From Ligustrum vulgare (taxonomy: Eukaryota; Streptophyta; Magnoliopsida; Lamiales; Oleaceae), in assembly GCA_963555705.1 (NCBI GenBank), contig OY743184.1, forward strand, positions 18,961,859-19,025,858: 64,000 bases of DNA, in the 5' to 3' direction. A model generated the notes under the pieces. That model did no database searches and was not told the DNA's origin. It was given only the letters and a program-made list of their open reading frames with translations. The translations under genes were made by a program, and so were the position numbers. Of this stretch, positions 1,512 to 53,423 are shown piece after piece (within the stretch, counting starts at the first letter, position 1; every line of letters starts with the position of its first letter).

Positions 1512-1574
<63 letters not shown>

Positions 1575-3780
1575 AAATAAATAATTGCGATGTTGACAAA
1601 GATATTGCATCAAATTTATGATATTTTAGGTTTTCAATATTTATACAACTTAATTATTTTCTGATTGAAATTATAATTTACTATTGATCATCTCAATTTT
1701 TAGTTAAGTAAATTGGGAGACAATTTATATATTATTGTGAAAAAATATCATAAAATTTGAATTAAAATATAGCAAAGAATATCTTGGTATGGATAATTAC
1801 TTTTTGAAGTTTTAAAATTAATAGTTAGGACAAAAATCATTAATAACTATATCATTTCAAACAATATAGATAAATTTGTTATCCGTTAATGTTAAAAAAT
1901 GTGATATGAGACTTTTTGGAATAAAAAAATTAATTAAGAATTAAATGTAATTATCATTGAAATAATTTTGATAAATAATGCAATATAGGCAAGAACTTTA
2001 ATATGTATATGTAATAAATAACTTAAAAATAGGATTTAGTTATAAAAATTTCAATACAACGTGATTTATAAAAAAACAAATGTGTATAAATTCTAGATAT
2101 AATTTTAATTGAGAATTTGACATTAGATCTGTATGACTGAACCAAATATTTATCCATAAAATTAAGACCAATAAAATATCACAATTATTATAAGAAATTA
2201 ATTATGTATTAAATGTAATTATCTATAAAAATATTTAATAATTTAATAATACACTATAAAAAAGAACTCTAATTTTTAGATGTACTAAATAACAAAAAAT
2301 AAGATTATTTATAAAAAAAAATATATGTATGATGTGATTTATAATTTAGTACTCCCTCTATCCCATAAAGATAGTCCTCTACTTATTTTCACACAGATTA
2401 AGGACAAAATGAAATATAAAATATTAATTTCACTCTTAAAAAATAAAGTAGACTATCTTTTTAAGACGAATAAAAAAGAAATAGTGTACTATCTTTGTAG
2501 GACAGATAGAGTATTATATAGTAATAAAATTTCGAAATAATTTTTAACTGAAAATTTTACTTTGAATTTGTATAACTGAATACAAATATTTATTTGTAAG
2601 ATTGAAAACATTAGAAGAACACATTTTTTTTATGAAAAGAGGGGTTTTAACACAAAAAAATCAAATATAAATAAGTAAAATCAAAAAAATTATCGTTCTT
2701 ATATCATAAAAAAAAAAACTTCTCGGTAAAAGCAAATTAAAAATTAAAAAAAAATTCTAGTTTCTTGTTTTTATTATTTTTTATACAATGTGATATAGAA
2801 TTTCATCAAATATATATACTGACCCATGAATAATATGTTTTTCTTCACTCAACGGTCGAAATTAACATATTCATTCAACCCAAAACTATTCTAATTATCC
2901 CAACATTAGTTAACACATTGCAAACCCAACAGAGAAATCTAGAACATAATATAAATAGATTATTAACAAATCCTCTTATTAGTCCAAAATAATTTTGCAT
3001 TCTATATTGTTTTCGAAGCTTTCTCTACAATATTATTGTTTTAATATTTTTTTTTCCAGAAACTCAAATATATGTTCAACAACTCAAAATATCACAGGTC
3101 TTAAAGAAAATAGTAGTGCCAATCCTTTTTACTTTTTTCAAAAAATAATTTACGATTTTTTTATTTTCAATTGGTTCGTAATATTAATAACTAATAAGTA
3201 TTACCACCGCACCAAAAATTTTGAATCATAAAACGTGATAAATAGAAGGTGGAGTGGAGCGATCATGTTAAACAGTACACATTTTTTCAAAGAAATAACC
3301 CTTTAATTGAATCTTTTGTTATTGTGTATATCTTCATAATAATTATATATAACAGAAATGAAAGAAGTTGTATATAGGGAAATGGAAAAAAAAAAGATAT
3401 AGAAAACAAAAATGAATAAACAGATTTTGAAAAAGGAAAAAAAAAATGAAACAAATTCTTAAAAAGAAAATAACTGGCTTTCCAGTGTAATTAGGCGGCG
3501 GGAAATAGAAGTCATGTAAACACAATAAATATTGAAGACTGTAAGTAGATGTCAACGATTTTGAAAATAATAAATAAATATTGAAGGCCTAACTATTTTT
3601 TAAGTGAGTTTTGAAGTTGATTATTAGATGGGAGATATGAGTAGTGTAAACATGATAAATATTGAAATTCTCAAAAATTGGAAAAATAAATAAATAAAAT
3701 CTGTACATAGTACAAGAGTTTTGGAGGGAAACAGTGAAATTGACTGGGGTTGACTCAGCTACTTTTATATATTATATAGA
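951..3780 (-). mobile_element. Non-autonomous Helitron
   Basis: Read on the minus strand, the element ends with a short GC-rich hairpin (CCGTGC-ATC-GCACAGG, near 961-978), an 8-base spacer and CTAG, followed by T. This is the Helitron 3' signature (hairpin plus CTRR, inserted between A and T). The minus-strand 5' end at 3780 reads A|TCTATATAATATATAAAAG, the usual TC start of plant Helitrons. There is no Rep/helicase ORF, so it is non-autonomous. The interior is AT-rich and holds a TAA microsatellite. The 3' end is firm; the 5' end could be a few bases to the right, because GAT recurs in 3779-3796. Confidence 0.65.
1513..1569. repeat. (TAA)n microsatellite
   Basis: About 18 perfect trinucleotide units inside the Helitron. 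It produces a spurious poly-tyrosine frame on the minus strand. Confidence 0.95.
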
Positions 3781-7994: not shown

Positions 7995-10900
7995 GTGAAT
8001 TATCACATAAATTCACACCCTGCTGGAATGTCAAGGACAGATCCAATCACATTTACCTTGGACGACGCGATCGAGGTGCATTTCCCACACAATGATGCGC
8101 TAGTAATTCGGATGGTGGTATCTAGAAATGGATTGTCCCGCATACTGAAGGATGATGGAGTCTCGATAAATGTTATTTATAGGGTAACCTATGAAAAGAA
8201 GGGAATTAGTACCCCCCTTGTTCTAGTCCCGGACCCCATAAATGGCTTCACCGGGGATAGCATCATCCCAGGGGATCAATAATCCTTATGATCGAGGTGG
8301 GATAGGCACCTACCATTGCTATGATGCCAATGGAATTTCTAATTGTGCATAAGACATCTTCCTATCATGTTTCAATTGGAAGACCAAGATTTATCGACTT
8401 AGGGGCTGTCACTCACACGAAGTACATCTGCATGAAATTCCCAACTACAAGTGGAATAGCTACTGTTAGGGGGAACCAGACCGAGACACAATCATGCTAT
8501 ACAAATGCAATCCTAAAGTTTCAAGATCGAACTATCAACATGATTAGCAATATAACGAAGGTCGAGACTGTCTCATATCCTGAAAAATTAGATGTCGAAC
8601 CTAATACAGGTAAAGATGTCACGATGAAGGAAGAGGAAGATCTGGTAGATTTAGACCCCAGAATGACTGGTACAAAATGTTGTACTGCTCCGGCTGAAAA
8701 GCTGGAATGCTTCTCCGTCAACCCATCAGACCCGATGAAGTAGTTGGAAATTGGGAAGGACTCATTGGTTGAACTCAAAGGGCAACTAAAAATCTTTCTC
8801 CTCCAAAATCTTGACGTGTTTGCGTGGAAACATGATGACATGGTAGGAATAGACCCTCAGGTAGCCTGCCATAGGCTCCAACTTGATCCGAGACACCCTG
8901 GACATAGACAGAAGAGGAGATCGATGAGTCCAAAGAAATATGAGGCCTTGAAAGAGGAGGTTTCGAAGTTGTAGAAAAATGGCTTCATTAGGGAATCTTG
9001 CTATCTGAAGTGGGTGTCAAACCCAATACTGGTCCTTAAGAAAAACGGGAAGCTACGGGTGTGCATAAATTTCTCGGACCTAAATCAAGCGTGTCAAAAG
9101 GATAGCTTTCCTTTGCCTCAGATTGATCAACTAGTTGACTCCACGGCGGGGCCTGAAATGTTAAGCTTTATGGACGCATACTCCGAATACAATCAGATCC
9201 CCATCCATCGATCCAATGAGGAGCACACCTCCTTTATCATGGACAGGGGACTCTACTATTATAGGTCCATGCCCTTCGAGTTAAAGAATGCAGGGGCCAC
9301 CTACCAAAGGTTAGTGAATCAGATTTTTTCAAAACAACTCGGAAACGCCATGGAAGTATATGTAGATGACATGCTGGTAAAAAGTATGGTCGCCTTAAAA
9401 CATGTCTACCAATCAGAAACATTTGATATATTAAGAAAATACTGAATGAAGCTCAACCCTGTAAAGTGTTCCTTCGGAGTAGCATCTGGAAAATTTCTTG
9501 GTTTCATGGTGAATAGTAGGGGAATCGAAGCAATCCAGAAAAAATCAATGCTTTGCTTGATATGAGCTCGGCCCGAAACCCCAAAGAAGTACAAAGCTTA
9601 ACTGGAAGAGTCGCTACTTTGAGCAGATTCATATCCAAATCTATCAATAAGTGCCTGCCTTACTTTAAGGTGTTGAAAGGAGGAAGAAGATTTCAATGGA
9701 CACAGGAATGCGAACAAGCCTTTACAGAGTTGAAGGTGTTTTTAGGACCGGCCCCTCTATTATCCAAGCCCAAGGCCGGGGAGCCACTGTTCTTATATTT
9801 GGCCATCTCCAAAGAGGTCGTTAGCTCCGTGTTGGTTAGAGAGGAGAACGGTAGTCAACTTTCAGTGTATTATGTGAGTAAAGCCATGTTGGACGCTGAA
9901 ACGTTCCACCCTGACATTGAGAAACTCGCCCTAGCCTTGGTCACAACGGCTACTTTCAGTCACATTCAATCCGAGTACTTACAAATTTTCCTATGAGACA
10001 AGTCTTGCAGAAACCAGATGTATCCGGAAGATTAATGAAGTGGACTGTAGAGATCAGCCAGTACGACCTACAGTATGTGCCTCGGACAACTGTAAAGAGC
10101 CAAGCATTATCCGATTTCATAGCTAAGTTTAAACATCCACCCGAGGTGGAGATGATTGGGAATTCATGAGATACTCACGAATGGGGGCTATTCTTTGATG
10201 GATCCTCTACCGAAGGAAGGGTTGGTGCTAGTATAATACTAGTAAGCCCAGAAGGGTACAAACTACACAGCGCAATCCACTTCGATTTTAGAGCTTCAAA
10301 CAATATGGCTAAATACGAAGCACTTAGGTCATGAGTGAAGCTAGCAATAGCCCTGAAAATCAGATCACTAACGGAGAATAGCAATTCTCAACTCATCGTG
10401 AGGCAAATCAATGGGCAGTTCGCCGCCAAGGAACTCGCCATGGTCGCATACTTGAAGAAAGTAAAATAGTTGGTAGCTCACTTTGAGAAATTTGAGTTGA
10501 TTCACATTCTCAGATCTGAAAACTTGAACGCAGATGCTTTGTCCAAGTTGGCAAGGAGCAAGGATGCCTAACTCCTCAACATGGTGCTCATTGAACATCT
10601 ACCGGTCTCCTCTATTGAACCAGGGGCAGAAATATGTGCAATAGCGGAGGAGAGCTCCTGGGTGACACCCATTCTTGCTTACTTGAAATATCAGACTCTG
10701 CCAGATGACCCGGATGAAGCTCAAAAATTACAAAGGTATGCAACTAACTTCATCCTCATCGATGAGTTGCTCTATAAACTAGTTACACCGAGGCTTTGTT
10801 ACTGTTCGTTAATCCACCAGAGGGCAAGTACATAATGATGGAGATCCATGAGGGCATTTGTGAAAATCATGTCGGGACATTATCCTTAGCTAGGAAAACT

Positions 10901-11895
10901 TTGAAACAGGGGTACTTTTGGCCCACTATGCAGAGGGACATGCATGACTTCGTCAGAAGGTGCGATAAGTGTCAGAGACATGCATCCATACCACACCGAA
11001 CACACCATGAATTGATAGTAGTGACTAGCCCCTGGCCTTTTGCAAAGTTGGGGGTCGACATTATTAGCCCCATGCCCAGAGGTAGTGGGAATAACTGCTT
11101 AGCGATCGTTGCGATAGACTACTTTACCAAATGGATCGAGGCAGAACCCTTGATGAAAATCACTAAAGCAAACACTTCCAAGTTCCTTTCGAAGAATATC
11201 ATTTGCAGGTTTGGAGTACCACACTCGCTGGTGACTGACAATGTGAAGCAATTCAAAAACAGAAAAGTTGATGAGTTGTGCGATGATTTGGGAATTTGCA
11301 AATTATTCTCATCACCACACCATCCGCAAGCAACTGGCAAGTCGAAGCGGTTAATAAGACCATCAAAAACACTTTAAGAAGGAAATTAGAATCAAAGAAG
11401 GGTGCTTGGGTAGATGAACTTCCCCAAGTCTTGTGGGTGCTTTGGACTACCTCTCACACCGCGACGAAGAGATCCCCTTCTCTATGACTTATGGATCCGA
11501 GGCAGTGTATCCAATAGAAATCGGAGTGCCATCCCCTCTCCAAATATATTATGAAGAAGCAACAAATGAAGAAGCTCAAAGGGAGAATTTAGATTTCCTC
11601 CTAGAAAGAAGAAACGAATAACAGGTTGTGATGGCCCGCTACCAAGAAAAGATGATCCGTTAATACAACAAGAAGGTAAAGAAATGATTCTTCAAAATTG
11701 GGGATCTAGTCCTCAAAAAGATCCTCCCTTCAACCCAGGAACTAGGAGTAGGGACTTTGGGTCCTAATTGGGAAGGGCCTTACAAAGTCATCACCAAGGT
11801 GATACCAGGGACTTATAGAATAGAAGACCTATCCGGAGTACTCTTGCCCAATCCTTGGGATACAGATCACCTTTGTCGCTATTTTCAGTAAAGGG
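7995..11895 (+). pseudogene. Tat pol remnant (PR-RT-RH-RH2-IN)
   Basis: Protease: 7995-8282, with the active-site motif changed to DDGVSIN (DDGASVN in the second copy). RT: about 8744-9500, with LRVCINFSDLN, FMDAYSEYNQI and the catalytic YVDD near 9358. First RNase H/connection: 9553-9996. Second RNase H: 10171-10572, with DGSS, a SNNMAKYEAL block and NADALSKLA. Such an added RNase H is characteristic of Tat elements. Integrase: 10796-11621, with an HHCC zinc region ending CDKCQRH, DDE-core aspartates in VDIISP and VTDN, and the C-terminal block ending near 11895. In-frame stops (for example 8743, 10333) and frameshifts (9445, 11340) break it throughout. Confidence 0.9.
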
Positions 11896-28734: not shown

Positions 28735-30303
28735 TCAATGAGAGACATCTCCATTTTCTTTCACACCATTCACCTCAGGATGTTTAGAATCTTCACCATT
28801 TTCTTTCACTTCTTCATTAACTTTGCTATTTTCTTCTTTCTCTTTCTCTTTCTCAGCCTCTAGCTTCTTTTCTTCCTCATCTTTCGCTTTCGCTTCTTCC
28901 TCGGCCTTAGCTTTTGCTTCTTCTTCTGCCTTTGTTTTTGCTTCTTCCTCGGCTTTGGCTTTTGCTTCTTCCAGAGCCTTAATCAATCTCACCAAGCAAC
29001 TTTCCTCATCTTCTACACTTGATTTGGGCATCAAGTTTTCTGCAACATCTGCAGGTGTCATTTTGGTTTCCTGTAACATGTTATCGATCCTGCCAAACAG
29101 TTTATGAGACTCAAGATCCAAATAATTCTTTGCTAATACTTTGAATGCTTCGAAACTACAGTAAGATAATTCTATATGCTTATCCATTCTTCCTCGCCGA
29201 ATCAAAGCAGGATCTAGCTTTTCCACATAGTTCGTCGTGAAAATAATAATCCTCTCCCCGCCACAAGCTGACCACAGCCCATCAATGAAATTAAGAAGCC
29301 CGGATAATGTAACCCGACTTTTCTGGTTTTCATCCCTATTTTTCATCTCCGCCTTAACTGGATCCTTATCCTTTTCTTCCTTCTTTTCGTCGTCTGTCTT
29401 CTCCTTCTTCTTCTTCTCCCTTTGGCCCGTAAGATCAAGAGAACAATCGATGTCTTCTATTACAACAATAGATTTGTTAGACGTGTCTATCAGCAACTGT
29501 CTAAGCTCCGTGTTGTCCTTAACTGTCGTCAATTCAAGATCATAAACGTCATATTTCAAAAGATTAGCCATGGCAGCGATCATGGTTGACTTCCCAGTTC
29601 CAGGTGGACCATAGAGGAGATACCCCCGCTTCCATGCCTTGCCAATCTTGGTGTAATAGTCTTCCGCCTCAGTAAACCTGATCAGATCTTTGACAATTTC
29701 TTCCTTCTTGTTGGGATCCATGGCTAAAGTATCAAAACTTGCTGGATGTTCAAATGTCACGTGGCTCCACTTGGCACTCTTGTATCCATACCAATTATCA
29801 CTCTTATTGTTAGTGTACAATTTTCTCAGCCTTTCCTTAACAGTAATCGCTTTTCCGTCATCCAAAACATGTTTCAGATAAGAACTGGTGATCATATCCC
29901 TGTATTTTTTGTGGAAAGTGAGGGCGAAATATCTGTTGGCATCTTGCCTAGGATATAATGAAATCGATTGCCTGTCGGGAACGACTTGATCGGAAGCCCA
30001 CCAAAGCTTGATCCCCTGGAATTCATCGATGATCTCTTCGTGATCCGCCATGCTAAGAACTATAGACTGGCTGTCTTGTACAACATTGGCCTTTAGATGC
30101 TTCGCCTGCTTCGAGGAGTTCTTATTCAAATACCTTTCGATTGCAGCAAATGCTTTGCTGCGTTCAAATCGATCACCCTGGTATTCTGAAAATGTAATCA
30201 CGATGTAAGGATAGAAGAAATTTATGATTCTGTGGCTGTAAAGCTTTAGAGGTTTTCGAAGGTCATAGGGGAAATAATTTTGAAACATGGCATAAGCCAC
30301 CAT
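28735..30303 (-). CDS. BCS1/ASD-type AAA-ATPase (AAA-ATPase At3g28580-like)
   Basis: A 522-codon single-exon ORF from ATG at 30303. Plant genes of this family are usually intronless. The N-terminal hydrophobic segment (VAYAMFQNYFP) and the FFYPYI block form the AAA-associated ASD domain (about residues 1-110). The AAA core has Walker A GPPGTGKS (about 232-239), Walker B IVVIEDIDCS (about 279-288), and the sensor/arginine-finger region TTNYVEKLDPALIRRGRMD (about 356-374). A Lys/Glu-rich insert follows Walker B. The C-terminus is unusually long and acidic, with 8-residue KAKAEEEA-type repeats (residues about 446-480). ATP-driven membrane-anchored remodelling in mitochondria or ER is expected from the family. 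The open frame extends eight codons upstream (30327) without an ATG, and the ancestral start appears to have been upstream, so the start is uncertain. No in-frame stop; possibly functional. Confidence 0.9.
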   Translation of the reverse strand: MVAYAMFQNYFPYDLRKPLKLYSHRIINFFYPYIVITFSEYQGDRFERSKAFAAIERYLNKNSSKQAKHLKANVVQDSQSIVLSMADHEEIIDEFQGIKLWWASDQVVPDRQSISLYPRQDANRYFALTFHKKYRDMITSSYLKHVLDDGKAITVKERLRKLYTNNKSDNWYGYKSAKWSHVTFEHPASFDTLAMDPNKKEEIVKDLIRFTEAEDYYTKIGKAWKRGYLLYGPPGTGKSTMIAAMANLLKYDVYDLELTTVKDNTELRQLLIDTSNKSIVVIEDIDCSLDLTGQREKKKKEKTDDEKKEEKDKDPVKAEMKNRDENQKSRVTLSGLLNFIDGLWSACGGERIIIFTTNYVEKLDPALIRRGRMDKHIELSYCSFEAFKVLAKNYLDLESHKLFGRIDNMLQETKMTPADVAENLMPKSSVEDEESCLVRLIKALEEAKAKAEEEAKTKAEEEAKAKAEEEAKAKDEEEKKLEAEKEKEKEENSKVNEEVKENGEDSKHPEVNGVKENGDVSH

Positions 30304-30386
30304 TAGCCCTGCAACTGCATTGATCAAAGGTTCGCGATATAAAGTTTTTTATCTTTCTTATTCTGATTCAAAGTTAGGGTATAAAG

Positions 30387-41200: not shown

Positions 41201-42412
41201 CTATATACCAAAAATATCATCAAAGTATACCACAACAAATTTTCCAATAAAAGCACGCAAGACATGGTTCATTAATCTCATGAAAGTACTAGGTGCATTA
41301 GATAGGCCAAATGGCAGAACCAACCATTCATATAAACCATATTTGGTTTTGAAAGCGATTTTCCATTCATCACCTTCATTCATGCTCATTTGGTGATAAC
41401 CACTTTTGAGATCTATTTTACTAAACATACATGCCCCATGCAACTCATCAAGCATATCATCTAATCTAGGTATAGGATGGTGATACTTTACCGTGATATT
41501 GTTGACTGCTCTACAATCCACGCACATCCTCCAAGTTCCATCCTTCTTGGGCACTAGCAAAACTGGTACTGCACATGGGTTCATGCTTTCTCTGAATTAG
41601 TCCTTGCTCAACAATTCCTCAACTTTCCTTTGAAGCTCCTTTGTTTCTTCCGAATTACTCCTATAAGCTGGCATGTTCGGGATGACAGCTCTTGGCACGA
41701 AATCAATTTGGTGCTCAATCCCATGAATAGGTGGAAGCCTGCTAGGTATTTCCTCGGGAAACAAGTCTTCAAATTCTTGCAAAAGAGACACAGCTAAACT
41801 AGGGAGGGGGTGGTTAGCCTCATCAAGTGCAAGGAAGGATTCCTTGTACATTAACAAAATCACTGGCTTATTTTCAAAAATGGCTCTGGTAATCTCACTT
41901 TGTTTTGCGTAGAAGCTCACTTTTGTTTTCACTCTGTTTTCTTTTCTGGCACTCTTCACACCCTCTCTTTTTCTGGGATCGTGGTCTCAACTCTCTTTTA
42001 ATCACTCAATTCTCCTTTTTCTGGGATCATGGTCCCAACTCTCTTTTGTTCACTCAACTCTCCTTTTTCTAGGAACGTGGTTCCAACTCTCTTTTTCTCT
42101 TCCTCACTTTTTAGTTTTAATTGGTCCTCATAGACCTGTTGTGGTGACAAAGGCATAAGTTTGACATTTTTCCCATCTTTGGTGAAGGTGTATCTATTTT
42201 TATAACCGTCGTGAATAACCTTTCTATTAAATTGTCACGACCAGCCCAACAAGATGTGCCCCGCATACATGGGAACCACATCACAAACCACCCTATCTTC
42301 ATACTTCCCAATTGCAAGATCAATTACCACTTGCTTATTCACCTTAATCTCTCCCGGCTCATTTAACCACTGCAGTCTGTAAGGCCTAGGGTGTTTTAGT
42401 ACAGGTAGACAC
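38250..42412 (-). pseudogene. Chromovirus pol remnant
   Basis: Reading right to left: protease part KYEDRVVCDVVPMYAGHILL (about 42300-42235). RT follows in two blocks, 41959-41597 and 41584-41201, with [32 protein letters not shown] and the catalytic YFDD. RNase H is at 41116-40673 ([10 protein letters not shown]). After the solo LTR the RNase H tail, zinc-binding region (39598-39248) and integrase core (39110-38739) follow. The last block, 38696 to about 38320, ends in a GDGPFEVIEKINENAYKLDL C-terminal motif. Frameshifts between blocks and stop codons make it non-functional. Confidence 0.85.
39694..40620 (-). mobile_element. Solo LTR with dense TTACGGCCGTAA palindromes
   Basis: 927 bp, TG...CA ends, flanked by CAGAT (39689-39693) and CAAAT (40621-40625), a 5-bp duplication with one mismatch. 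It splits the host RNase H codons precisely: host sequence rejoins as a continuous HYLWPKEF-type frame. Shares the phrase GAACGCCACAA and the palindrome cluster with the LTR at 37453-38234. At least eight palindrome copies lie between 40200 and 40455. Confidence 0.8.
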
Positions 42413-44055
42413 TTTCCAGACACTACCCCAAATGCACACTTCGCTGGATTGAGTTTCATTCGATATTTCCTCAACACCTCGAAGGTCTCTGATAAATGGC
42501 GGATATGATCCGCGGCGACCATGCTCTTGACCAACATGTCATCGACATACACCTCCATGGCGTTTCCCAATTGTTCCGAAAACATGCGATTCACCAGCCT
42601 TTGATAGGTAACTCCCGCATTTTTCAAGCCGAATGGCATTGCTTTGTAACAATAGAGTCCTCTATCTGTTATAAACGAAGTATGCTCCTCGTCCGATTCA
42701 CACATGGGGATTTGATTGTACCAGGAGTAGGCATCCATGAAGCTCAGCAGTTCATGCCCTGTTGTTGAGTCAACCAACTGATCGATCCGGGGCAGTGGGA
42801 AACTGTCTTTTGGACATGTCTGGTTCAAGTTTGAAAAATCAATACATACCCTCAATTTCCCATTGTGTTTTGGTACCAACACAGTGTTTGGTACCCACTT
42901 CGGATAGCGGGATTCTCTGATGAAGCCATTTTTCAACAGCTTCGTGACCTCGTCTTTCAAGGCCTCATATTTGTCTGAACTCATGGGTCTTCTCTTCTGC
43001 CTATGCCCGGGGCTTCGAGGGTCAATCTGGAGTCTGTGGCAGGCCTCTTTAGGATCAATCACAACCATGTCGCCATGCTTCCACGCGAATACATCGAGAT
43101 TTTTAAGTAAGAAATTCTTCAATTGATCTTTGTATTCAATTGGTGAATCCAACCCAATCTGCAATTCCTTGATTGGGTCATGTGGGTCTACGCCGAAGCA
43201 TTCTAGCCTTTCTGCCGAGGTGTAGCAATTGTCTCCTGCAATTCTTGGTTCCAGATCTTCCAAGTCTTCTTCTAGTGTCATCGTGATGTCCTTATTTTCA
43301 AAGAGCTCTCCACCCAATCTTTCAGGGTCTGGAGCAGCCTCGGCCATGGCTACATCGCTATTCATGTTCAAACTTCGATCTTGAAACTTTCGGATTGCGT
43401 TCGTGTAACAGGCCCGCGACTCAGTTTGGCTTCCCCTTAAAATTGCAACGCCATGCTCCGTGGGGAATTTCATGCAAATGTATTTCGTATGCGTTGCAGC
43501 CCCCAAGTCAATGAGGCCTGGTCTCCCAATTGAGCCATGATAGGAGGATATTTTGTCCACAACCAAAAATTCCATGGGGATTCTAGAAATAGTTGGTGCT
43601 TGCCCCACCTCAGTTATTAGGGTTATGGACCCTCTGGGGTTATGTTGTCTCCCGTGAATCCATATATTGGATCTGAGACCAGAATAAGGGGAGTGTTGAT
43701 CCCCATTTTATCGAACGTTACCCCGTAAATCACATTTACCGAGGCACCATCATCAACCATCATCCGTGATAACCCATTCCGAGCCACCACTACCCTGATA
43801 ACCAATGCTTGTGGGGGAAATGTACTTAAATGGCATCGTCTTGGGTGAATGTGATTGGCTCTGTCCGAGGCATCCCTAAAGGATGTGAATGGATATGGTA
43901 ATTCACGTTGGTGAGTTGTTTGGCCTCTCTGATGTACCTCTTTTGGGAGTTGTTTGTGCTCCCGCCTGGGTGGGGGCCTCCCAGTATTGTGTCAATTTCA
44001 CGAATGGGGAGGTCGGCCACAGGTACAGGTGGTTCCCGTGTATCTTTAGCATGCG
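42413..44055 (-). pseudogene. Second Tat element: protease and RT part
   Basis: Minus-strand pol of a Tat element closely related to 5002-17072 but better preserved. The protease block 43805-43623 has an intact VDDGASVNVIY. The RT ORF 43608-42413 has LRVCIDFSNLNQTCPKD, FMDAYSWYNQIP and catalytic YVDD. The 457-codon frame (43608-42235) passes through the junction at about 42408-42412 into chromovirus protease without a stop, so its last about 60 residues belong to another element. The gag part is at 52541-52960, separated by the LOG-carrying retrotransposon. Confidence 0.85.
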
Positions 44056-44060
44056 CCAAG
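44056..44060. repeat. Target-site duplication CCAAG, left copy
   Basis: CCAAG precedes the LTR start TGTAGCGACC. An identical CCAAG follows the right LTR at 52536-52540. Removing the element and one copy restores the Tat reading frame. Confidence 0.95.
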
Positions 44061-44354
44061 TGTAGCGACCAAGAATTTTTACGCGATTAATAATTATTTT
44101 AATAGAAAATCGTGTCGCTACTATTTCACCCATTTTTATTAAGTAACGCCGTGACGTATTCGTATAGCCAAGTCAAGAAATAATCGAGATCGTTCGATTT
44201 TAAATTAAATTCCGAATTTCTAAAAATATCTCCATTCTCTTGATTTAAAATATATTAAGTCCAAGTACTTAATTCAATGTTATCCCAATATTTATTTATA
44301 CAAAAATTACTTTTATTATTGAAATTAAGAAAATATATGCAAGCATGGGAGGTT

Positions 44355-44844
44355 CCATTATATGTAATCATGAAGAGCATAATATTTGTATAAATATGGA
44401 AAAGTATATGAATGATTTATATACTCCATTATATATAATCATGAAGAGCATAATATTTGTATAAATATGGAAAAGTATATGAATGATTGATAAGACTCCA
44501 TTATATGTAATCATGAAGAGCATAATATTTGTATAAATATGGAAAAGTATATGAATGATTTATATACTCCATTATATATAATCATGAAGAGCATAATATT
44601 TGTATAAATATGGAAAAGTATATGAATGATTTATATACTCCATTATATATAATCATGAAGAGCATAATATTTGTATAAATATGGAAAAGTATATGAATGA
44701 TTGATAAGACTCCATTATATATAATCATGAAGAGCATAATATTTGTATAAATATGGAAAAATATATGAATGATTGATAAGACTCCATTATATATAATCAT
44801 GAAGAGCATATTATTTGTATAAATATGGAAAAGTATATGAATGG
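44355..44844 (+). repeat. Seven-unit 71/72-bp tandem array in 5' LTR
   Basis: Units start CCATTATAT at 44355, 44426, 44498, 44569, 44640, 44712 and 44784. They alternate two spacer types (TTTATATACT and TTGATAAGACT). The same array is at 50615-51104 in the other LTR. Confidence 0.9.
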
Positions 44845-45069
44845 TGCTTTACTTTAAGAAAAGGATGTGTTAAAATTAATAGAATTGAATGATTATGTTT
44901 ACAATATGCCAACTTTATACATCTATTTAAACCCATCTCTTTTACACACAACTCTACACATATACACTTATTTCCAATCTCTTGACAAAATCCACAAGTA
45001 AGAGAAATTCAAGGTGGTCAAGAAAGTTTTGGTCCATTTACTACTACACTTCATTTTAATCTTTTAAAA

Positions 45070-45225
45070 GGTAAGTATATTTTATGTTTTTATGAAAAGT
45101 AAGTATGTTTTTATGAAAGGTAAATACACCTTATGTTTTTATGAAAAGTAAGTATATTTTATGTTTTTATGAAAAGTAAGTATGTTTTTATGAAAGGTAA
45201 ATACACCTTATGTTTTTATGAAAAT
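45070..45225 (+). repeat. GTAAGTATGTTTTTATGAAA tandem array, short form
   Basis: Short repeats of about 24 bp rich in TTATGTTTTTATGAAA. In the 3' LTR the corresponding array (51330-52024) is 539 bp longer. Confidence 0.85.
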
Positions 45226-45738
45226 GTTTGGATCATTGCTATGAAATCAATCTCACAAGATTGTTATGGGTTCCATATGATATGTTTATGATTATGCTAA
45301 GGGGACCGGAGTTTAGTAGCGCTACACATAAGAATTCTTGCCATTTAAGTTCGGTAAAATTCTTGTGTCTCCCTATGTTTATGAGTATTTCGATCCTATC
45401 CTATGTTATGATGAAAATGATCCATATGCTTTCAAAAGAAAATTTATGCTTGGTATACTTACTGGGATTTTATAAATCTCACTCCACGATATTTACCATT
45501 TTCAGATAATTGAAGGTTCGAGGCGATCAACATGGAAGTGGCAAAAGTGGTTAAGATTGATGAGATAATTATGTTGAACTTTATGTAAGAAAATTATGTT
45601 CTATTTTTATTCACAAATAAAATTATGGGATTCTAATTATTCTTTTGAATAATTTTACATTACTATTTAAGTCTCGATAATATGATATGAGTCACTTTTA
45701 GTGGCACTCGAATGGTCGAGAATTCGGGTCGTCACAGT

Positions 45739-45750
45739 TGGTATCAGAGC
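45739..45750 (+). promoter_or_regulatory. tRNA-Met primer-binding site
   Basis: TGGTATCAGAGC two bases after the 5' LTR, the standard plant primer for minus-strand DNA synthesis. It fixes the element's orientation as plus. Confidence 0.93.
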
Positions 45751-45961
45751 AAAGAGTTTTAAAAACGATTCTGTAGATTTTTGAAATTTTATTTCTTTAA
45801 AAAAAAAAAAAAAATCACTATTCACGTGAACAGTAAAACGACGTGCTATTCATGATGAACAGTGAACGAAATCACTATTCATTATAAAAAAAAAAAAGTT
45901 GAATTTTCACATGTCAAGTATGGTTATGATTTTGAAAAGCATGATGAAATTTGATGTGCGA

Positions 45962-46020
45962 ATTTCAAGGACAAAATTCATTTTAAGCAAGGGAGTTTGT
46001 AATGTCCTGAAAATTTTATG
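45962..46020 (+). repeat. Internal second polypurine-tract/LTR-start-like junction
   Basis: AATTTCAAGGACAAAATTC, then an AAGCAAGGGAG purine run, then TGTAATGTCCTGAAAATTTT. This is the order pol-tail, polypurine tract, LTR start of a related element. It suggests the interior was assembled by recombination with another LTR element, whose LTR fragment continues to the right for an unknown distance. Confidence 0.5.
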
Positions 46021-46646
46021 GAATATAATTAGTTAGTGATATGATGTTTATATTGATGTGTTTGATAAATTTCTAGAAGTTCGGGGACTAAAGGAAAAAT
46101 AAGATTTGACGATAAATTTTATTTGGGTTAAGTTATTAATTGTTGATGGGGAGATAATTACTATATCGATATTGGATTTGTTTTGAAGATTGTGATTAAT
46201 TAGGAATTATGATTCAAGAAAATGTTGATTTGGATACAACCACATTAAATTATTGTTGATTAAAGGAAAATAAGATTATATGAAATATTTTAACTCATCA
46301 CTCTACTATGTCACTCTCCACGTATTGACTCCTCGAACCAGGTATGTTATATGCTTTGCAAGTCATTTACGATTTTATTAAGACATGTTAAGTATGAAAT
46401 CTTCATATGTTATGAATCTTTAAGTGAAATATACATGTTGAGTATGATATGAATTGATAGAAGCCTGAATTTTAATTTATTCCTTTTTATGTAGAATCAT
46501 GAGACATAGAGGATATTGATATGAATTTTGGTTCATATTAAGCTTAGTAAGACTGACTAAATTAGAAAAATAAGTTGGTTCGTAACTTTTGCCAAAAAAT
46601 ATATGGAATAATATATTAAACAAACAAAATTAATAATGAATTTGTA
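46021..46646. other. Noncoding interior
   Basis: AT-rich, no ORF. Possibly the remainder of the LTR fragment starting at 45999. Confidence 0.4.
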
Positions 46647-46830
46647 CAATAATTTATCCCTTTATCACTACCTTTGTGTAAAAACAAGGGAAAAACTGTG
46701 GATGGTTATTAGTACTTCCTCTTCAAGTTTCAATTTTCGGTTCAATAATTTATCCCTTTATCACTACCTTTGCTTAAAAGCAAGGAAAAACTGTGGATGA
46801 TTATTGGTACCACTCTTCAAGTTTCAATTC
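46647..46830. repeat. Two-copy 96-bp repeat with hairpins
   Basis: Copies start CAATAATTTATCCC at 46647 and 46743. Each contains a hairpin-capable block (CCTTTGTGTAAAAACAAGG and CCTTTGCTTAAAAGCAAGG) and ends in CTTCAAGTTTCAATT. Confidence 0.75.
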
Positions 46831-47665
46831 TGAAAAAAATTCGGAAAGAAAGAAAGAGAACGGGTGTTGAGCATAATGGGAATAATATGACTTAAGAATG
46901 ATTTTCAAAATAATTGTTGTCCTCGAGTTTAGAAATGATGAACCTTAAATGGACTTTGCATAATTGATTTTAGACATGGCACTAAGTATAAGAAGTCAAC
47001 AGAAATGATTAGAAATATGTTCAGATTATCTATCATTTAGATTTAATGAGAAATAGCGAGCCAATTTTATGAAGTTTTATGAGATGTTAAGATTATAAGT
47101 GATATGATTTTAATGAGACTTTTATGAGAAGCATTATGAAGTTAGAGATTTAAAGATTTGGTTATTGGGAATTAAGTAATGGCTATTATGTTGAGTAAGT
47201 GAATTATGCCTCTATATTGAAGAGAAATTTATTATGAACTTTGGCCTTGTGATATTGAAAAATATGATTTGAAATTGTTATGTTGAGGAATTATGAATTG
47301 AATTATGGGATATTTTTTTGATGATATTGAAGTGTTGGAATCGTTTTCAATATTTTTAGATCGTTGTGATCAAATGTGGAGTTATTTATTATTGTGAGTT
47401 ATGAAGTATGCTTATGGTTTGGGATAAGTCCAAATTTCAAAGGAAACTCTGCCTAGAATTTTATCGTTTGGAATTAAGAGCATAGTATGGTATGCAATCA
47501 CTAAGAGAATTGAGGTTAGACATGCAAATTCATTTACATCACAAACGAGATTTAGTAGATGATAACAGAGATATTATTATTTTCTCGTAAGGAGAACACA
47601 CAAGAGTCACACTGGAAAGAAATACATGAAACACGCAAAAGCAAAAGAAAGCAACATGGGAAATT
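46831..47665. other. Noncoding interior
   Basis: No ORF, RNA gene or repeat recognised between the hairpin repeat and the stem-loop array. Confidence 0.4.
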
Positions 47666-47896
47666 CCTCAAATTGAGAGATGTGTTTCCGGAGTAGCCGT
47701 ATCCTACCACCTCTGACCTTTTGAGGAAATAAAGAAACCTTCAAAGAGGTGTGTTTCGAGAGTAAGAATACTCCGTAATCTACCACCTGGAACCTTTGAG
47801 GTACACACAAGATTTAAACATTAAGGAAATCCTAGGAAATTAGAGGGGTGTCTCGAGAGTAAGAATACTCCGTACTCTACCCCCACCTATTCTAAG
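47666..47896 (-). repeat. Three tandem stem-loop units after the LOG stop codon
   Basis: Units at 47666-47726, 47738-47801 and 47831-47896. Units 1 and 2 begin CCTCAAA or CCTTCAAAG and end TTTTGAGG or CTTTGAGG, so each folds back on itself. A GGTGTG...CCACC inner pair follows, and units 2 and 3 share the core hairpin GAGTA-AGAA-TACTC (47760-47773 in unit 2). Sequence varies while pairing is kept in several places, hinting at RNA structure. On the minus strand the array starts within three bases of the LOG stop codon and would be in its 3' UTR. Confidence 0.6.
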
Positions 47897-47898
47897 AT

Positions 47899-48552
47899 TC
47901 ATAAAGTTAAGTTTACATTAACCGGACTCCATTTTCGCTTGATTCCCCTTCCTTGCGACCAATCTATCTTAACCCCTGCTGGATCTTGTATTGAGATATA
48001 TGACTGCAGCTTATCCAGTAGTTCATCAATAGTAGGAGCAGAAATAAGGAGCCTTCTGGAAAATGGAGAGATGAATCCCTGTTCCACAGCATAATCAAGA
48101 AAGGTTAACAAGCCATCAAAGAAATTGTTAACATTCAGAAGCCCAATAGGCTTAGTATGGAGATCTAGTTGAGCCCACGAGGTAATGTTAAAGATTTCTT
48201 CTAAGGTACCAAAACCTCCGGGCAGGGCTATAAAGGCATCAGAACCATATAGCATACAAGTTATGCGTTCATGGATGGATAAGGTTTGAACTTCATGCCC
48301 TCGTGTTTTTCCTGCAACATCTACCAAAGGGACAGGTATGACACCGATTACTTTTGATTTCTCTGTAATAGCAGATTGGGAAACACAACCCATTAGACCA
48401 CTGCTACCACCCCCATATACAAGAGTGATACCTTTTTCCCCCAGTTTCTTTCCAAGATCTACGGCCGCTTCTAGATAACTGAAGCCTTTCCCCACTTTTG
48501 ATCCACAAAATACACAAATAGTTTTGATCTGTCGAAGTTTTGGTGCTTCCAT
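47899..48552 (-). CDS. LOG-like: LOG-family cytokinin riboside 5'-monophosphate phosphoribohydrolase, retrotransposon-borne
   Basis: Intact 217-codon ORF, ATG at 48552, TGA at 47901-47899, normal length for LOG proteins. LOG enzymes release active cytokinin bases from cytokinin nucleotides in cytosol and nucleus. Conserved features: Rossmann start TICVFCGS (11-18), the nucleotide-binding LVYGGGSSGLMG (44-55), IGVIP (69-73), SDAFIALPGGFGTLEEIF (104-121) with Glu119 of the PGGxGTxxE motif, and KPIGLLNVNNFFD (134-146). The usual motif Tyr is Phe (residue 114), and the Arg-Lys pair before it reads Arg96-Ile97, so activity needs testing. It has no introns, whereas plant LOG genes normally have several, which points to a retrocopy. 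It lies antisense inside an LTR retrotransposon, 296 bp downstream of a second ORF on the same strand, with a TATA-like site of its own. Confidence 0.93.
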   Translation of the reverse strand: MEAPKLRQIKTICVFCGSKVGKGFSYLEAAVDLGKKLGEKGITLVYGGGSSGLMGCVSQSAITEKSKVIGVIPVPLVDVAGKTRGHEVQTLSIHERITCMLYGSDAFIALPGGFGTLEEIFNITSWAQLDLHTKPIGLLNVNNFFDGLLTFLDYAVEQGFISPFSRRLLISAPTIDELLDKLQSYISIQDPAGVKIDWSQGRGIKRKWSPVNVNLTL

Positions 48553-48626
48553 CTTTGATAGTATAGAAGAGAAAACTTACGAAGAAGATGTGATTTTGGG
48601 ATGCCTGAACTATGAAATATGTTTGA

Positions 48627-48636
48627 CTATTTAAAG
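48627..48636 (-). promoter_or_regulatory. Candidate TATA box for the LOG ORF
   Basis: CTTTAAATAG on the minus strand, about 75-85 bp before the LOG ATG. It would give a short leader and allow transcription independent of the LTR. Inference from sequence only. Confidence 0.4.
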
Positions 48637-48727
48637 CCGGAAAAATTTACTGTTTTTGATTGATTATGAAAAAGTAAAGATTTATTTTTGACAAAATCGG
48701 CCAACTTTTGACTGTTTTACCAAAGAT

Positions 48728-48743
48728 ATCACCTTTCGGTGAT
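48728..48743 (-). promoter_or_regulatory. Perfect 6-bp hairpin with GAAA loop upstream of LOG
   Basis: On the minus strand ATCACC-GAAA-GGTGAT, a GNRA-type tetraloop hairpin in the gap between the two ORFs. If the two ORFs share a transcript it would be a stable structured element. Function unknown. Confidence 0.45.
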
Positions 48744-48848
48744 TTATTTCCAGCTTTATCAAAACTCGAGAAAGGAAAATATATTTTATTTCCAAAACGC
48801 GTGAAAGAAAACAGCAAAATATTTTAAATGTGTATCAAGAGATTTACC

Positions 48849-49448
48849 TTATATCATTGTTGAACTGCCAGAAGCCTCATTTTGTAAAACAGACTGGCAA
48901 ACAGGATCTTTTGCTATTATATTTTGGAGACTATAACGATTTTTGTCCTCGTTAAACTGAGCGTATAAGGAGAGAAGTTCACGTTGCACATAACCACTTG
49001 GGTGCGTCTCAAGAGTCAGTCGAATATCATCCAAAGACTCCTTACTCAGTCCACCCTTTATGAATTTGATTTTATCATCCCGATTAGTAGAAGAATATCC
49101 TACTGTTTTGCAACGAGTATCACAGTTCCAACGAGCACATTTGTAGCAACCATTCAGCCTTTTTGCTCTTCGTTTCTTTGCGAAGGTGCTTTTGCCTAAA
49201 CCAGGCATGTGCTTTGGAAATGTCATAGGTAATTCACCAGATAGTCGAACCTTTGCTTCGATCAACCAGCGAACATCTTCTGAAACACCATGAGCCATCA
49301 GCAACCTCAATCTTTCGAGTCTTATTCGATAGATTTTCCTCAGATCATTCATTGGAAGACTGGAATAATACTTGCGAATGTTTGTAAGAATGATATCCAT
49401 GTTTTTGATGGATCTAACCTCTTCCCAGCATGAACTATTTAAAAGCAT
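48849..49448 (-). CDS. Basic Cys-rich protein of unknown function in the LOG-carrying element
   Basis: Intact 199-codon ORF, ATG at 49448 (a second ATG is at codon 17), TAA at 48851-48849. I do not recognise it as a plant family. Visible features: an Arg/Leu-rich helical N-terminal half (LRKIYRIRLERLRLL, 36-50), a strongly basic stretch KKRRAKR (91-97) and, right after it, Cys101-x2-Cys104-x4-Cys109-x3-Cys113, a possible zinc-binding or nucleic-acid-binding motif. The C-terminal half is mixed helical, ending near VLQNEASGSS. The basic-then-Cys layout is reminiscent of the small nucleic-acid-binding proteins of some filamentous plant RNA viruses, but Cys spacing differs and this is only a suggestion. 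Same strand as and upstream of LOG, so the two may be a cassette. Absence of stops suggests recent capture or selection. Confidence 0.7.
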   Translation of the reverse strand: MLLNSSCWEEVRSIKNMDIILTNIRKYYSSLPMNDLRKIYRIRLERLRLLMAHGVSEDVRWLIEAKVRLSGELPMTFPKHMPGLGKSTFAKKRRAKRLNGCYKCARWNCDTRCKTVGYSSTNRDDKIKFIKGGLSKESLDDIRLTLETHPSGYVQRELLSLYAQFNEDKNRYSLQNIIAKDPVCQSVLQNEASGSSTMI

Positions 49449-50305
49449 TAAGGATCGGAGGGAATCCGCGTGATATTGATTCCAGCAAGAAAGCGTGGAA
49501 TAGAATAATGGAAAAGAGGGAACAAGAGTTTATGCGCCGTTTACTTTCTTGATAAAAGGAAGATTTGATGATGACGGGATTTGAGATATGGAATATTTTC
49601 TTGGATTTTTGGGTACTGATATTTTGATATAATAATCAAGGTATAGAAATAATACGGGGATACGTGAAAGTGAAATAATGACTGTATTGAATCAGGATTA
49701 ATAAGTTTGTGCAAGTGAAAGGAATACCTTACGGGAAATGTTATGATATTTGAGTTAAGAATTTTAATTATTTGGGAGATATTTGTTTATTGAATTTTGC
49801 AGAAATTTTGGGTTACAAATATTGGAAAGATAAACTGATGATTATGTTGATATGTGAATAACATGTTTGGGTATATTACATAGAGAATATTCAGGTAATC
49901 GTTTTAATTATTTTGGGATATTTGGTGATAAGAAGAAATGACAAATTATTATGGTATGATATGTTAGTAAAGATTTATTGAAATTTTAGAGATATTAATA
50001 CGAATATTTGAGGTTACATGATACGATGATAAGTGACAGGTTACATGAGTACTACAAGATATGATGAAATATCACATACGATTGGAAATTTTCATTTTGA
50101 GTTAGAATTTATGAGTAGACACATATGTCTATTATTGATAAGAAAAATACATGTTCTTAAGAAAACAAAGAGATGCATTTAGTAAAAGTCCAGTGGGTTA
50201 GATATTATAATGATGAGATTACTAAGAGAAAGAAGAGAAGAGATTCTGATTAAGTGTTCAGAAATCATAAGATCAAGTAAGTTTAATTTCGAGGACGAAA
50301 TTATT
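49449..50305. other. Noncoding interior before the polypurine tract
   Basis: No ORF or repeat recognised. On the minus strand this is the upstream region of the 199-codon ORF and may contain its promoter. Confidence 0.4.
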
Positions 50306-50320
50306 TTAAGGGGGTAAGTT
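50306..50320 (+). promoter_or_regulatory. Polypurine tract of the LOG-carrying element
   Basis: TTAAGGGGGTAAGTT directly before the 3' LTR, preceded by AATTTCGAGGACGAAATT, a phrase typical of the pol end of plant chromoviruses. Confidence 0.85.
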
Positions 50321-52535
50321 TGTAGCGACCAAGAATTTTTACGCGATTAATAATTATTTTAATAGAAAATCGTGTCGCTACTATTTCACCCATTTTTATT
50401 AAGTAACGCCGTGACGTATTCGTATAGCCAAGTCAAGAAATAATCGAGATCGTTCGATTTTAAATTAAATTCCGAATTTCTAAAAATATCTCCATTCTCT
50501 TGATTTAAAGTATATTAAGTCCAAGTACTTAATTCAATGTTATCCCAATATTTATTTATACAAAAATTACTTTTATTATTGAAATTAAGAAAATATATGC
50601 AAGCATGGGAGGTTCCATTATATGTAATCATGAAGAGCATAATATTTGTATAAATATGGAAAAGTATATGAATGATTTATATACTCCATTATATATAATC
50701 ATGAAGAGCATAATATTTGTATAAATATGGAAAAGTATATGAATGATTGATAAGACTCCATTATATGTAATCATGAAGAGCATAATATTTGTATAAATAT
50801 GGAAAAGTATATGAATGATTTATATACTCCATTATATATAATCATGAAGAGCATAATATTTGTATAAATATGGAAAAGTATATGAATGATTTATATACTC
50901 CATTATATATAATCATGAAGAGCATAATATTTGTATAAATATGGAAAAGTATATGAATGATTGATAAGACTCCATTATATATAATCATGAAGAGCATAAT
51001 ATTTGTATAAATATGGAAAAATATATGAATGATTGATAAGACTCCATTATATATAATCATGAAGAGCATATTATTTGTATAAATATGGAAAAGTATATGA
51101 ATGGTGCTTTACTTTAAGAAAAGGATGTGTTAAAATTAATAGAATTGAATGATTATGTTTACAATATGCCAACTTTATACATCTATTTAAACTCATCTCT
51201 TTTACACACAACTCTACACATATACACTTATTTCCAATCTCTTGACAAAATCCACAAGTAAGAGAAATTCAAGGTGGTCAAGAAAGTTTTGGTCCATTTA
51301 CTACTACACTTCATTTTAATCTTTTAAAAGGTAAGTATATTTTATGTTTTTATGAAAAGTAAGTATGTTTTTATGAAAGGTAAATACACCTTATGTTTTT
51401 ATGAAAAGTAAGTATATTTTATGTTTTTATGAAAAGTAAGTATGTTTTTATGAAAGGTAAATACACCTTATGTTTTTATGAAAATTAAGTATGTTGTTAT
51501 GAAATGTAAGTATATCTTATGTTTTTATGAAAATTAAGTATGTTGTTATGAAATGTAAGTATATCTTATGTTTTTATGAAAATTAAGTATGTTGTTATGA
51601 AATGTAAGTATATCTTATGTTTTTATGAAAATTAAGTATGTTGTTATGAAATGTAAGTATATCTTATGTTTTTATGAAAATTAAGTATGTTGTTATGAAA
51701 TGTAAGTATATCTTATGTTTTTATGAAAAGTAAGTATGTTTTTATGAAAGGTAAATACACCTTATGTTTTTATGAAAAGTAAGTATGTTTTTATGACAAG
51801 TAAGTATATCTTATGTTTTTATGAAAAGTAAGTATGTTTTTATGAAAGGTAAATACACCTTATGTTTTTATGAAAAGTAAGTATGTTTTTATGACAAGTA
51901 AGTATATCTTATGTTTTTATGAAAAGTAAGTATGTTTTTATGAAAGGTAAATACACCTTATGTTTTTATGAAAAGTAAGTATGTTTTTATGACAAGTAAG
52001 TATATCTTATGTTTTTATGAAAATGTTTGGATCATTGCTATGAAATCAATCTCACAAGATTGTTATGGGTTCCATATGATATGTTTATGATTATGCTAAG
52101 GGGACCGGAGTTTAGTAGCGCTACACATAAGAATTCTTGCCATTTAAGTTCGGTAAAATTCTTGTGTCTCCCTATGTTTATGAGTATTTCGATCCTATCC
52201 TATGTTATGATGAAAATGATCCATATGCTTTCAAAAGAAAATTTATGCTTGGTATACTTACTGGGATTTTATAAATCTCACTCCACGATATTTACCATTT
52301 TCAGATAATTGAATGTTCGAGGCGATCAACATGGAAGTGGCAAAAGTGGTTAAGATTGATGAGATAATTATGTTGAACTTTATGTAAGAAAATTATGTTC
52401 TATTTTTATTCACAAATAAAATTATGGGATTCTAATTATTCTTTTGAATAATTTTACATTACTATTTAAGTCTCGATAATATGATATGAGTCACTTTTAG
52501 TGGCACTCGAATGGTCGAGAATTCGGGTCGTCACA
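50321..52535 (+). repeat. 3' LTR of the LOG-carrying element
   Basis: 2215 bp. Nearly identical to the 5' LTR: by eye I find three substitutions (A/G near 50509, C/T near 51192, G/T near 52314). The main difference is a 539-bp expansion of the TTATGTTTTTATGAAA array at 51330-52024, including five near-identical 49-bp units GAAATGTAAGTATATC...ATTAAGTATGTTGTTAT. Confidence 0.93.
51330..52024 (+). repeat. Expanded tandem array in 3' LTR
   Basis: Contains several higher-order units. A 49-bp unit with AAATTAAGTATGTTGTTATG is found only here, and a unit with GACAAGTAAGTATATC is repeated three times near its right end. Confidence 0.9.
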
Positions 52536-52540
52536 CCAAG
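52536..52540. repeat. Target-site duplication CCAAG, right copy
   Basis: Identical to 44056-44060. Confidence 0.95.
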
Positions 52541-52960
52541 GCAGTATCCTGGCCCCTATTCCTGTCTCTTTGACGATTGTCAATTCTTTCCTTAGTTGAG
52601 TTCTTCCACGGAGCTCTCCTATCAGCTCGGTTGAACTTCTGACCACCAGTTTTTTGAGTTCTCCCTGTGTCGGGAGGATAGTCACCTGCCCTTCTCCCCT
52701 GCGCCTTTTGGTCAACTAACATGTGGATTTCCCAACAATCCTCCGTTGCGTGACCGTAATATCTGTGATAGGCGCAGTAAGCCCCAATCATAGGCTGCTT
52801 TCCACTTCGGCCACTTTCCACTCTCCCTTGAGCCGTGGGAGGATTTTGAGAAGGGGTGTTAGAGTGCAAGTGAGGGATAGCTTACGTGATTTTTGTGGCA
52901 AAGCTAGATCCTGTCCCCGGAAATGGACGAGGCGCGCCACCTCGGTTACTGCCGACCCAA
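52541..52960 (-). pseudogene. Second Tat element: gag C-terminal part
   Basis: Minus-strand gag with the intact knuckle C-x2-H-x4-H-x4-C (CAYHRYYGHATEDC, about 52780-52740) and a basic tail RADRRAPWKNSTKERIDNRQ. A stop interrupts the frame near 52880. The frame joins the pol part at 44055 when the LOG-carrying element is removed. The right edge abuts a copia fragment at about 52960 with no LTR, so the element is truncated. Confidence 0.85.
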
Positions 52961-53423
52961 TTTGGATTGGGGCTCATGTCCTGACACTAGGAAATCTGTG
53001 ACCGGCTATTGTATGTTTCTTAGTGATTCAATTGTATCTTGGAAGGTAAAGAAACAAACAACCATCTCTCGTTCTTCGACTGAAGCCGAAGATAGAGCAC
53101 TGGCATCTAATGCAAGTGAATTGGTTTGGATTCATCAACTGCTCAAAGATTTTCATGTTAATATTTCCTGTCCAGCTCTTCTTTTCTGTGACAACCAGGA
53201 AGCGGTCCACATTGCCTCAAATCCCACTTTTCATGAGCGCACGAAACATATCGAGATAGACTGTCACTTTATCCGCGACAAAATCACAGAAGGTTTCATC
53301 AAACTATTGCCCATTCGTTCTCAGCATCAACTGGCAGATGTGTTCACCAAGCCCTTACCTTCTACTCAACTCTTTCCTCTTTTATCCATGATGTCCATCA
53401 AAGATATCCATGGTCCATCTTGA
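52961..53423 (+). pseudogene. Copia RNase H C-terminal fragment
   Basis: Frame reads [20 protein letters not shown], then [56 protein letters not shown] and [12 protein letters not shown], the end of a plant copia polyprotein. It is well preserved but only the last about 150 residues are present. It abuts the Tat fragment directly, with no LTR or target duplication at the junction. Confidence 0.85.

Follow-up and report, generated by a model that had tools for sequence, protein, structure and literature searches.

An antisense NABP-LOG gene pair, probably an accessory cassette, in a recently amplified non-autonomous retrotransposon family of Ligustrum vulgare

A stretch of 64,000 nt of Ligustrum vulgare DNA (assembly GCA_963555705.1, contig OY743184.1, positions 18,961,859 to 19,025,858 of the forward strand), referred to here as the window, was analysed. 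Positions 44061–52535 of the window are a recently inserted non-autonomous long terminal repeat (LTR) retrotransposon which carries two genes, LOG and NABP. An earlier reading made from the letters only (the sequence-only reading) had described a young element with perfect CCAAG target duplications, near-identical LTRs, and a LOG gene in place of gag-pol. The target duplications and LTRs were confirmed: the LTRs have TG...CA ends, and their alignment showed 3 mismatches in 1,676 columns and a single 539-nt gap in a 49-nt tandem array. The extra 539 nt of this repeat distinguish 51322–52036 in the 3′ LTR from 45062–45237 in the 5′ LTR, the remainder being 99.8% identical; LTR length also varied among other copies of the family. 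At a substitution rate of 0.7–1.3 x 10−8 per site per year, the LTR divergence of 0.18% would correspond to an insertion age of roughly 70,000–130,000 years. The primer binding site and polypurine tract of the earlier reading are both present as sequences; the tRNA-Met identity of the former remains a presumption, TGGTATCAGAGC being what we take to be a site of the initiator Met-tRNA type.

The internal region was searched with Pfam as 35 stop-to-stop pieces of at least 45 amino acids. For 33 of them there was no match above the cut-off (two gave weak sub-threshold matches, E 0.085 and E 0.091), and the other two were LOG and NABP. The gag and pol of an autonomous element were not found among these pieces. 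For an element without reverse transcriptase, lineage names such as Athila or chromovirus would be our guesses from end motifs. LOG does stand in place of gag-pol; its antisense orientation and the intact NABP partner had been overlooked. The LOG open reading frame (ORF) is full-length, intronless and intact with conserved motifs, as had been read, and matches PF03641 (E 1.2e-33) and TIGR00730 (E 3.6e-48) above the curated cut-offs. The NABP ORF, also intact and antisense to the element, opens at 49448 (48849–49448, minus strand). This start was dropped in favour of a putative start at 49400, where the relatives begin. Coordinates are collected in Table 1.

Table 1. Features of the element in the window and genes of the related locus L074 (own numbering).
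Feature	Position	Strand	Remark
5′ target site duplication CCAAG	44056–44060	+	same 5 nt at 52536–52540
5′ LTR, TG...CA, 1,676 nt	44061–45736	+	with ~71-nt and 49-nt tandem repeats
Primer binding site-like TGGTATCAGAGC	45739–45750	+	direct sequence reading; fixes element orientation as +
AATAAA	47390	−	candidate polyadenylation signal, 509 nt past LOG
LOG-type phosphoribohydrolase, 217 amino acids	47899–48552	−	profile searches; PGGxGTxxE intact; C-terminal basic patch and VNVNLTL tail
TATA-like GCTTTAAATAGT	48626–48637	−	~73 nt 5′ of LOG ATG; core TTTAAATAG at most 120 nt from LOG in 30/30 copies
Three AATAAA hexamers	48681–48790	−	between NABP stop and LOG TATA; candidate polyadenylation signals
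NABP-type zinc-finger protein, 183 amino acids from second Met	48849–49400	−	KKRRAKR, then C-x2-C-x4-C-x3-C; PF05515, PF01623
TATA-like GCTTTTAAATAGT	49434–49446	−	~33 nt 5′ of putative NABP ATG; core at most 80 nt from NABP in 28/28 copies
Polypurine run AAGGGGG	50308–50314	+	5′ of 3′ LTR; direct sequence reading
3′ LTR, TG...CA, 2,215 nt	50321–52535	+	539 nt longer than 5′ LTR through array change
3′ target site duplication CCAAG	52536–52540	+	
L074 LOG	634–1410	−	
L074 NABP	1471–2019	−	

The source genome (1.385 Gb, 51 contigs) was searched for both genes. First-look candidates are not equivalent to copies, and the 150 places scored for each gene are a lower bound. All 150 scored LOG places (of 9,449 first-look candidates) were full length with at least 99% identity and no stop; all 150 scored NABP places (of 8,801) were 100% identical. 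NABP was found beside LOG in 30/30 LOG loci, the window included: 27 of these NABP genes were fully spanned (four with a 1-nt gap) and three were partial, and 23 were gapless without stops. No second copy of the element was present within the 64-kb window. Elsewhere six copies were retrieved with both sides, and five were fully read, the left end of the sixth (L033) lying outside its stretch. The five had perfect and differing 5-bp target duplications (TGATT, GTTTA, TACAC, AATTG, and TATCA); together with CCAAG of the window, six insertions thus have six different perfect duplications. LTR mismatches in the five copies were 7/1844, 3/1874, 3/2412, 9/2042, and 0/1706. The element family is recently and heavily amplified, and mobile. 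The sequence-only reading had held that the element can move LOG and that several insertions with different target duplications and conserved LOG ORFs should exist, and both statements were borne out; the single-copy element it had named as a refutation is itself refuted. NABP places were also seen to repeat 3–5 times at 6.6–6.8 kb in one orientation (G000:C22:1306460-1326777, C23:10311325-10338627, and C6:13822851-13836916). A spacing of 6.5–6.8 kb, seen for a number of LOG/NABP places, is close to one LTR plus the internal region, which suggests arrays of LTR-internal units sharing LTRs.

Each gene is preceded by a TATA-like string. The full string occurs at exactly two sites in the window against 0.14 expected, and two sites were found in 0/100 shuffles; it was picked after the sites were seen, and its core, TTTAAATAG, has six occurrences in the window. 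For NABP the core was counted in the 28 of 30 copies in which the start string was found. Constancy of the core across 28–30 copies is expected, since these copies are near-identical; it also stands 5′ of both genes in a diverged subfamily, L075. The AATAAA hexamers are common in this AT-rich DNA. We infer separate TATA promoters for NABP and LOG.

Selection on the two genes was analysed at two depths, as the sequence-only reading had proposed for LOG, and the ratio of non-synonymous to synonymous substitution rates (dN/dS) of LOG was 0.15–0.21 between subfamilies and 0.41 within the young family. For the latter, loci were picked by the non-coding segment 46850–47500 (40 places scored, 30 loci, one of them the window), so that the sample was blind to coding. 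LOG was open in 23 of the 30 loci; of the remaining seven, two had a single stop, two were partial or rearranged, one carried a 30-nt deletion, one was shifted by 1 nt, and one lacked LOG. The 23 open copies gave the pairwise dN/dS of 0.41, with 13 synonymous changes per 156 sites and 19 non-synonymous changes per 495 sites relative to the window. A dN/dS of 0.05 from the 30 best LOG places was set aside because that sample had been ranked by protein identity. The second subfamily was read in L075 (G000:C11); further subfamily rows, with 67% to the NABP of L002 (described below), are listed on C1–C23. LOG of the window and of L075 differed at 10/651 nt and three amino acids (protein 98.6% identical), with dN/dS of 0.21 (NG86) and 0.15 (maximum likelihood), and dN/dS of NABP was 0.26. 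Mismatches, gaps counted, amounted to 19/291 columns in the intergenic, 41/581 in the downstream, and 88/739 in the upstream DNA, and the flanks were 7–13% substituted. LOG was the most conserved stretch compared. As judged from these ratios, purifying selection has acted between the subfamilies. Window and L002 NABP gave dN/dS of 0.19 and 0.16, with synonymous divergence (dS) near saturation.

We consider it probable that this recently and heavily amplified non-autonomous family carries an antisense two-gene accessory cassette, NABP then LOG. The genes might instead be passive cargo which once served an autonomous element and are now inert riders in its parasite, their antisense position being accidental. 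The missing gag-pol, the loss of a strict LxLxL ending of LOG in the window lineage, the weak selection signal among young copies, and the 7/30 loci without an open LOG frame are all compatible with this. Between subfamilies, however, LOG has diverged far less than the DNA around it, with dN/dS of 0.15–0.21, and the same TATA core precedes both genes in the diverged subfamily; we regard passive cargo as unlikely.

NABP of the window scored 32.4 bits with PF05515 (Viral_NABP, cut-off 23) and 23.0 bits with PF01623 (Carla_C4, cut-off 20.9). All 20 aligned NABPs (window and 19 relatives) matched both families at E<=0.01. Relatives numbered 413 proteins at E<=1; the best 120 of them all carry PF01623, and those named by organism among the 120 were plants (Orobanche, Populus, Xanthoceras, and Acer). 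Four Orobanche gene models among the same best 120 have NABP and a LOG domain fused in one protein. Four NABP/LOG entries with a shared source and equal-sized contigs of more than 1.5 kb (1524, 1558, 4511, and 8723) were noticed by eye; such pairing is only suggestive, as shorter coincidences unable to hold both genes also occur. In IMG/VR, 159 pattern stretches contained no NABP relatives. The gene sits in a retrotransposon, and encoding by an RNA virus, which belongs to the definition of Viral_NABP, does not apply to it. NABP could also be a basic zinc-finger protein of separate origin, matching the viral profile without kinship to the viral proteins. Only some 61 residues are covered by the profile match, most of them in the basic and cysteine-bearing part, the L002 and L074 proteins narrowly miss PF01623 (20.4 and 20.3 vs. 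20.9), and the structure model, with a mean pLDDT of 56, is too poor as a test. Against this, the PF05515 cut-off is passed in the window, L002, and L074, and 20/20 members match both viral families, which makes an independent origin rather improbable in our view.

The structure model of LOG had a mean pLDDT of 82.5, with tail residues 200–217 below 50, and its top fold match was Arabidopsis AtLOG3 (2a33; 52% identity in the fold match). The protein scored below the cut-off of the narrow NCBIfam equivalog CtkRMPhLog (108.5 vs. 300 bits) and, in a tree, was not included in the clade formed by 30 LOG1/3-type proteins of hosts (support 1.0). Established LOG enzymes release active cytokinin, and the window LOG would do the same. 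Searches returned 7,051 relatives at E<=0.001; the counts below refer to the best 120 (38 from Reevesia pubescens) and to a host control of 120 proteins found with Arabidopsis LOG3. A strict terminal LxLxL, the EAR corepressor motif, was present in 93/120 relatives vs. 0/120 host LOG1/3-type proteins, and a basic patch in 105/120 vs. 1/120. When only full-length rows were counted, LxLxL was terminal in 90/101 relatives vs. 0/85 host proteins; at 80% identity it occurred in 33/40 relatives vs. 0.09 by shuffling. Pathogen effectors are said to reach the TOPLESS corepressor through EAR motifs. These motifs have the form LxLxL or DLNxxP and usually lie at the C-terminal end (PMC9956375, accessible part). 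Two LOG gene models of Xanthoceras sorbifolium (P0122 and P0123, 336–359 amino acids) resemble two tandem LOG units by eye, and one remote LOG-like locus (L001) was present in IMG/VR. Instead of making cytokinin, the LOG fold might degrade some other AMP-like molecule, such as a nucleotide that signals in immunity, or be a mere scaffold for the tail. The LOG structures 5zbk and 5zbl bind AMP, and L074 has the tail without the enzyme motif. PGGxGTxxE is nevertheless kept in the window LOG and in 107/120 best relatives, and the nearest folds are cytokinin-type LOGs, so that little weight falls on this alternative.

Two further sequences bear on the origin of the cassette. L002 (3,330 nt) contains an integrase (rve, H2C2), then, after 192 nt, NABP in sense and TTGGGGGG, and no LOG. 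Its positions 1–3330 are binned under a Candidatus Nomurabacteria genome, probably as contamination of the public bin, and it is most likely plant retroelement DNA. L074, found in the source genome with the L002 NABP as query, consists of NABP, 60 nt, LOG, and then TTTGGGGG (polypurine tract). The two match in NABP and 59 nt past it (78.5%) and again in the polypurine tract (80.9%), with LOG in between in L074 only. By this pattern LOG occupies, in sense, the place of env in a related element, either gained there or lost in L002. L074 LOG shares 51% identity with that of the window and ends in LDLELRL; it is possibly a form with the tail and without the enzyme. No remnant of the L002 integrase was found near the window NABP (best match 19 amino acids, E 4.7), and a remnant of the L074 post-LOG sequence beside the window LOG is merely hinted at by two 12-nt matches (E 0.03). 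Derivation of the cassette from a Ty3/gypsy-type element with NABP, and sometimes LOG, at the env position is supported by these comparisons. LOG travels with NABP, L074 holds an older diverged pair, and the window LOG does not group with the host clade; it therefore seems to descend from an older lineage of element-borne LOG genes, at the root of which there may be an ancient retrocopy. The sequence-only reading had proposed that the element captured a reverse-transcribed host LOG mRNA, and in a recent event of this kind NABP would be unrelated. The gene is indeed intronless and intact, yet the L074 pair in the same genome, the four Orobanche fusions, and the separate clade of host LOG1/3 proteins leave this capture very improbable. 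Near-identical, repeat-rich LTRs could recall a duplicated or collapsed repeat of the assembly, which six insertions with six differing perfect target duplications, and LTRs that differ within five of them, render hardly credible.

We therefore retain the antisense accessory cassette and propose tentatively how it could work. A gag-pol donor would mobilize the element in trans, and NABP and LOG would each be transcribed antisense from their own TATA promoters. Viral CRPs are suppressors of silencing; in Chrysanthemum virus B the protein works as a transcription factor and causes hyperplasia (PMC12172455, accessible part). By analogy with these relatives, NABP would act in the nucleus on silencing or transcription, LOG would release active cytokinin, and the LOG tail may bind TOPLESS in much of the family. 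Weakened silencing and cell division would favour dividing or poorly silenced cells, and more transpositions would be inherited. A virus-like effector cassette of this kind, in which a nuclear, RNA-virus-type NABP, active in silencing suppression or as a transcription factor, and a LOG with a TOPLESS-binding basic tail arose at the env position, were flipped to antisense with their own promoters, and drove the burst by reprogramming host cells, is a conceivable, still doubtful extension. Such elements and flexuous RNA viruses may even have passed NABP from one to the other, in either direction. Several points weigh against the proposal. Constraint on LOG within the young family is mild and its selection signal weak, and the low LOG dS (0.04) relative to flank divergence may owe something to conversion or recombination. 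The window LOG itself has the weakened VxLxL form (VNVNLTL) without strict LxLxL. The tail counts set relatives chosen by protein similarity, rather than placed one by one inside elements, against LOG1/3-type proteins only. L002 carries NABP without LOG, the enzyme motif of L074 LOG is broken (PGDFGTLEQ), and a search of the 6 kb surrounding L074, which reaches about 4 kb upstream of its NABP, found no integrase.

When the flanks were joined across the insertion site, one reading frame stayed open, and thus the element sits inside a gag-like ORF. The ORF split by the insertion continues at 52531–52869 (minus), and the host of the insertion is another Ty3/gypsy element with a reverse transcriptase ORF (PF00078) at 42235–43608 on one side. 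The window is dense in nested elements; the L002 integrase also matches Ty3/gypsy integrase pieces at 10847–11828 and 39218–38619. By eye, a 530-amino-acid open ORF at 28735–30327 (minus) with a Walker-A-like GPPGTGKST resembles a plant AAA-ATPase, and an ORF at 52923–53423 (+), without Pfam match, resembles the end of Ty1/copia pol.

What the extra ORFs of plant retrotransposons do, and where they come from, is an open question. Here the extra genes comprise a relative of RNA-virus genes with studied activity, paired with a hormone enzyme in a freshly multiplied element, so that a hormone gene and a virus-like partner have been multiplied jointly as mobile DNA. Both proteins can be assayed in leaf, which makes retrotransposon effectors acting on the host directly testable. 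In genomes of this kind, element copies will swamp any survey of the LOG gene family.

Athila-like elements with similarity to LOGL4 were reportedly described by Steinbauerova et al. in 2011. The sequence-only reading was aware of no LOG-carrying retrotransposon family, which does not hold: the accessible part of PMC9289625 describes Citrus and Populus consensus sequences of Ty3/gypsy elements that contain a YgdH/LOG domain. Like these, the window family has a LOG-family ORF inside a eudicot LTR retrotransposon. Unlike those consensus sequences, which were found by reverse transcriptase, it has no pol, an antisense LOG, and an NABP partner unmentioned in that part of the paper. For the virus-type partner, the tail of LOG, and the antisense arrangement of the cassette, our searches of the open-licence literature turned up no earlier description; Ty3/gypsy elements with LOG-like domains have been published. 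According to the accessible sections of a 2020 review (PMC7264820), extra ORFs of plant retrotransposons are without similarity to viruses, and Grande gene23 is an antisense accessory gene of a Ty3/gypsy element with a nuclear product and its own promoter. The family resembles Grande gene23 and the antisense ORFs of RIRE2 and Retand in having an antisense accessory gene in an LTR element (PMC7264820, PMC11963269); those ORFs differ in encoding, as far as these sources state, unrelated or TRP28-type proteins beside pol. The accessible part of PMC11963269 names, as one possible origin of antisense ORFs, a recombination event between an element and some unknown virus, and the present case fits this idea. 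Host LOG1/LOG3 enzymes (2a33, 1ydh) share the fold and PGGxGTxxE with the window LOG; they form a separate clade, and the combination of basic patch and LxLxL tail occurs in 0/120 host proteins. With carlavirus and mandarivirus CRP/NABP (PMC12172455, accessible part) NABP shares a zinc finger, a basic stretch, and PF05515/PF01623; unlike them, it is retrotransposon-borne, present in many copies, and about 180 amino acids long. As with endogenous non-retroviral RNA virus sequences of plants, an RNA-virus-related gene is found in plant DNA; the case in the accessible text of PMC3136472 is a piece of betaflexivirus replicase in cucumber, whereas here a conserved gene has been spread by mobile elements.

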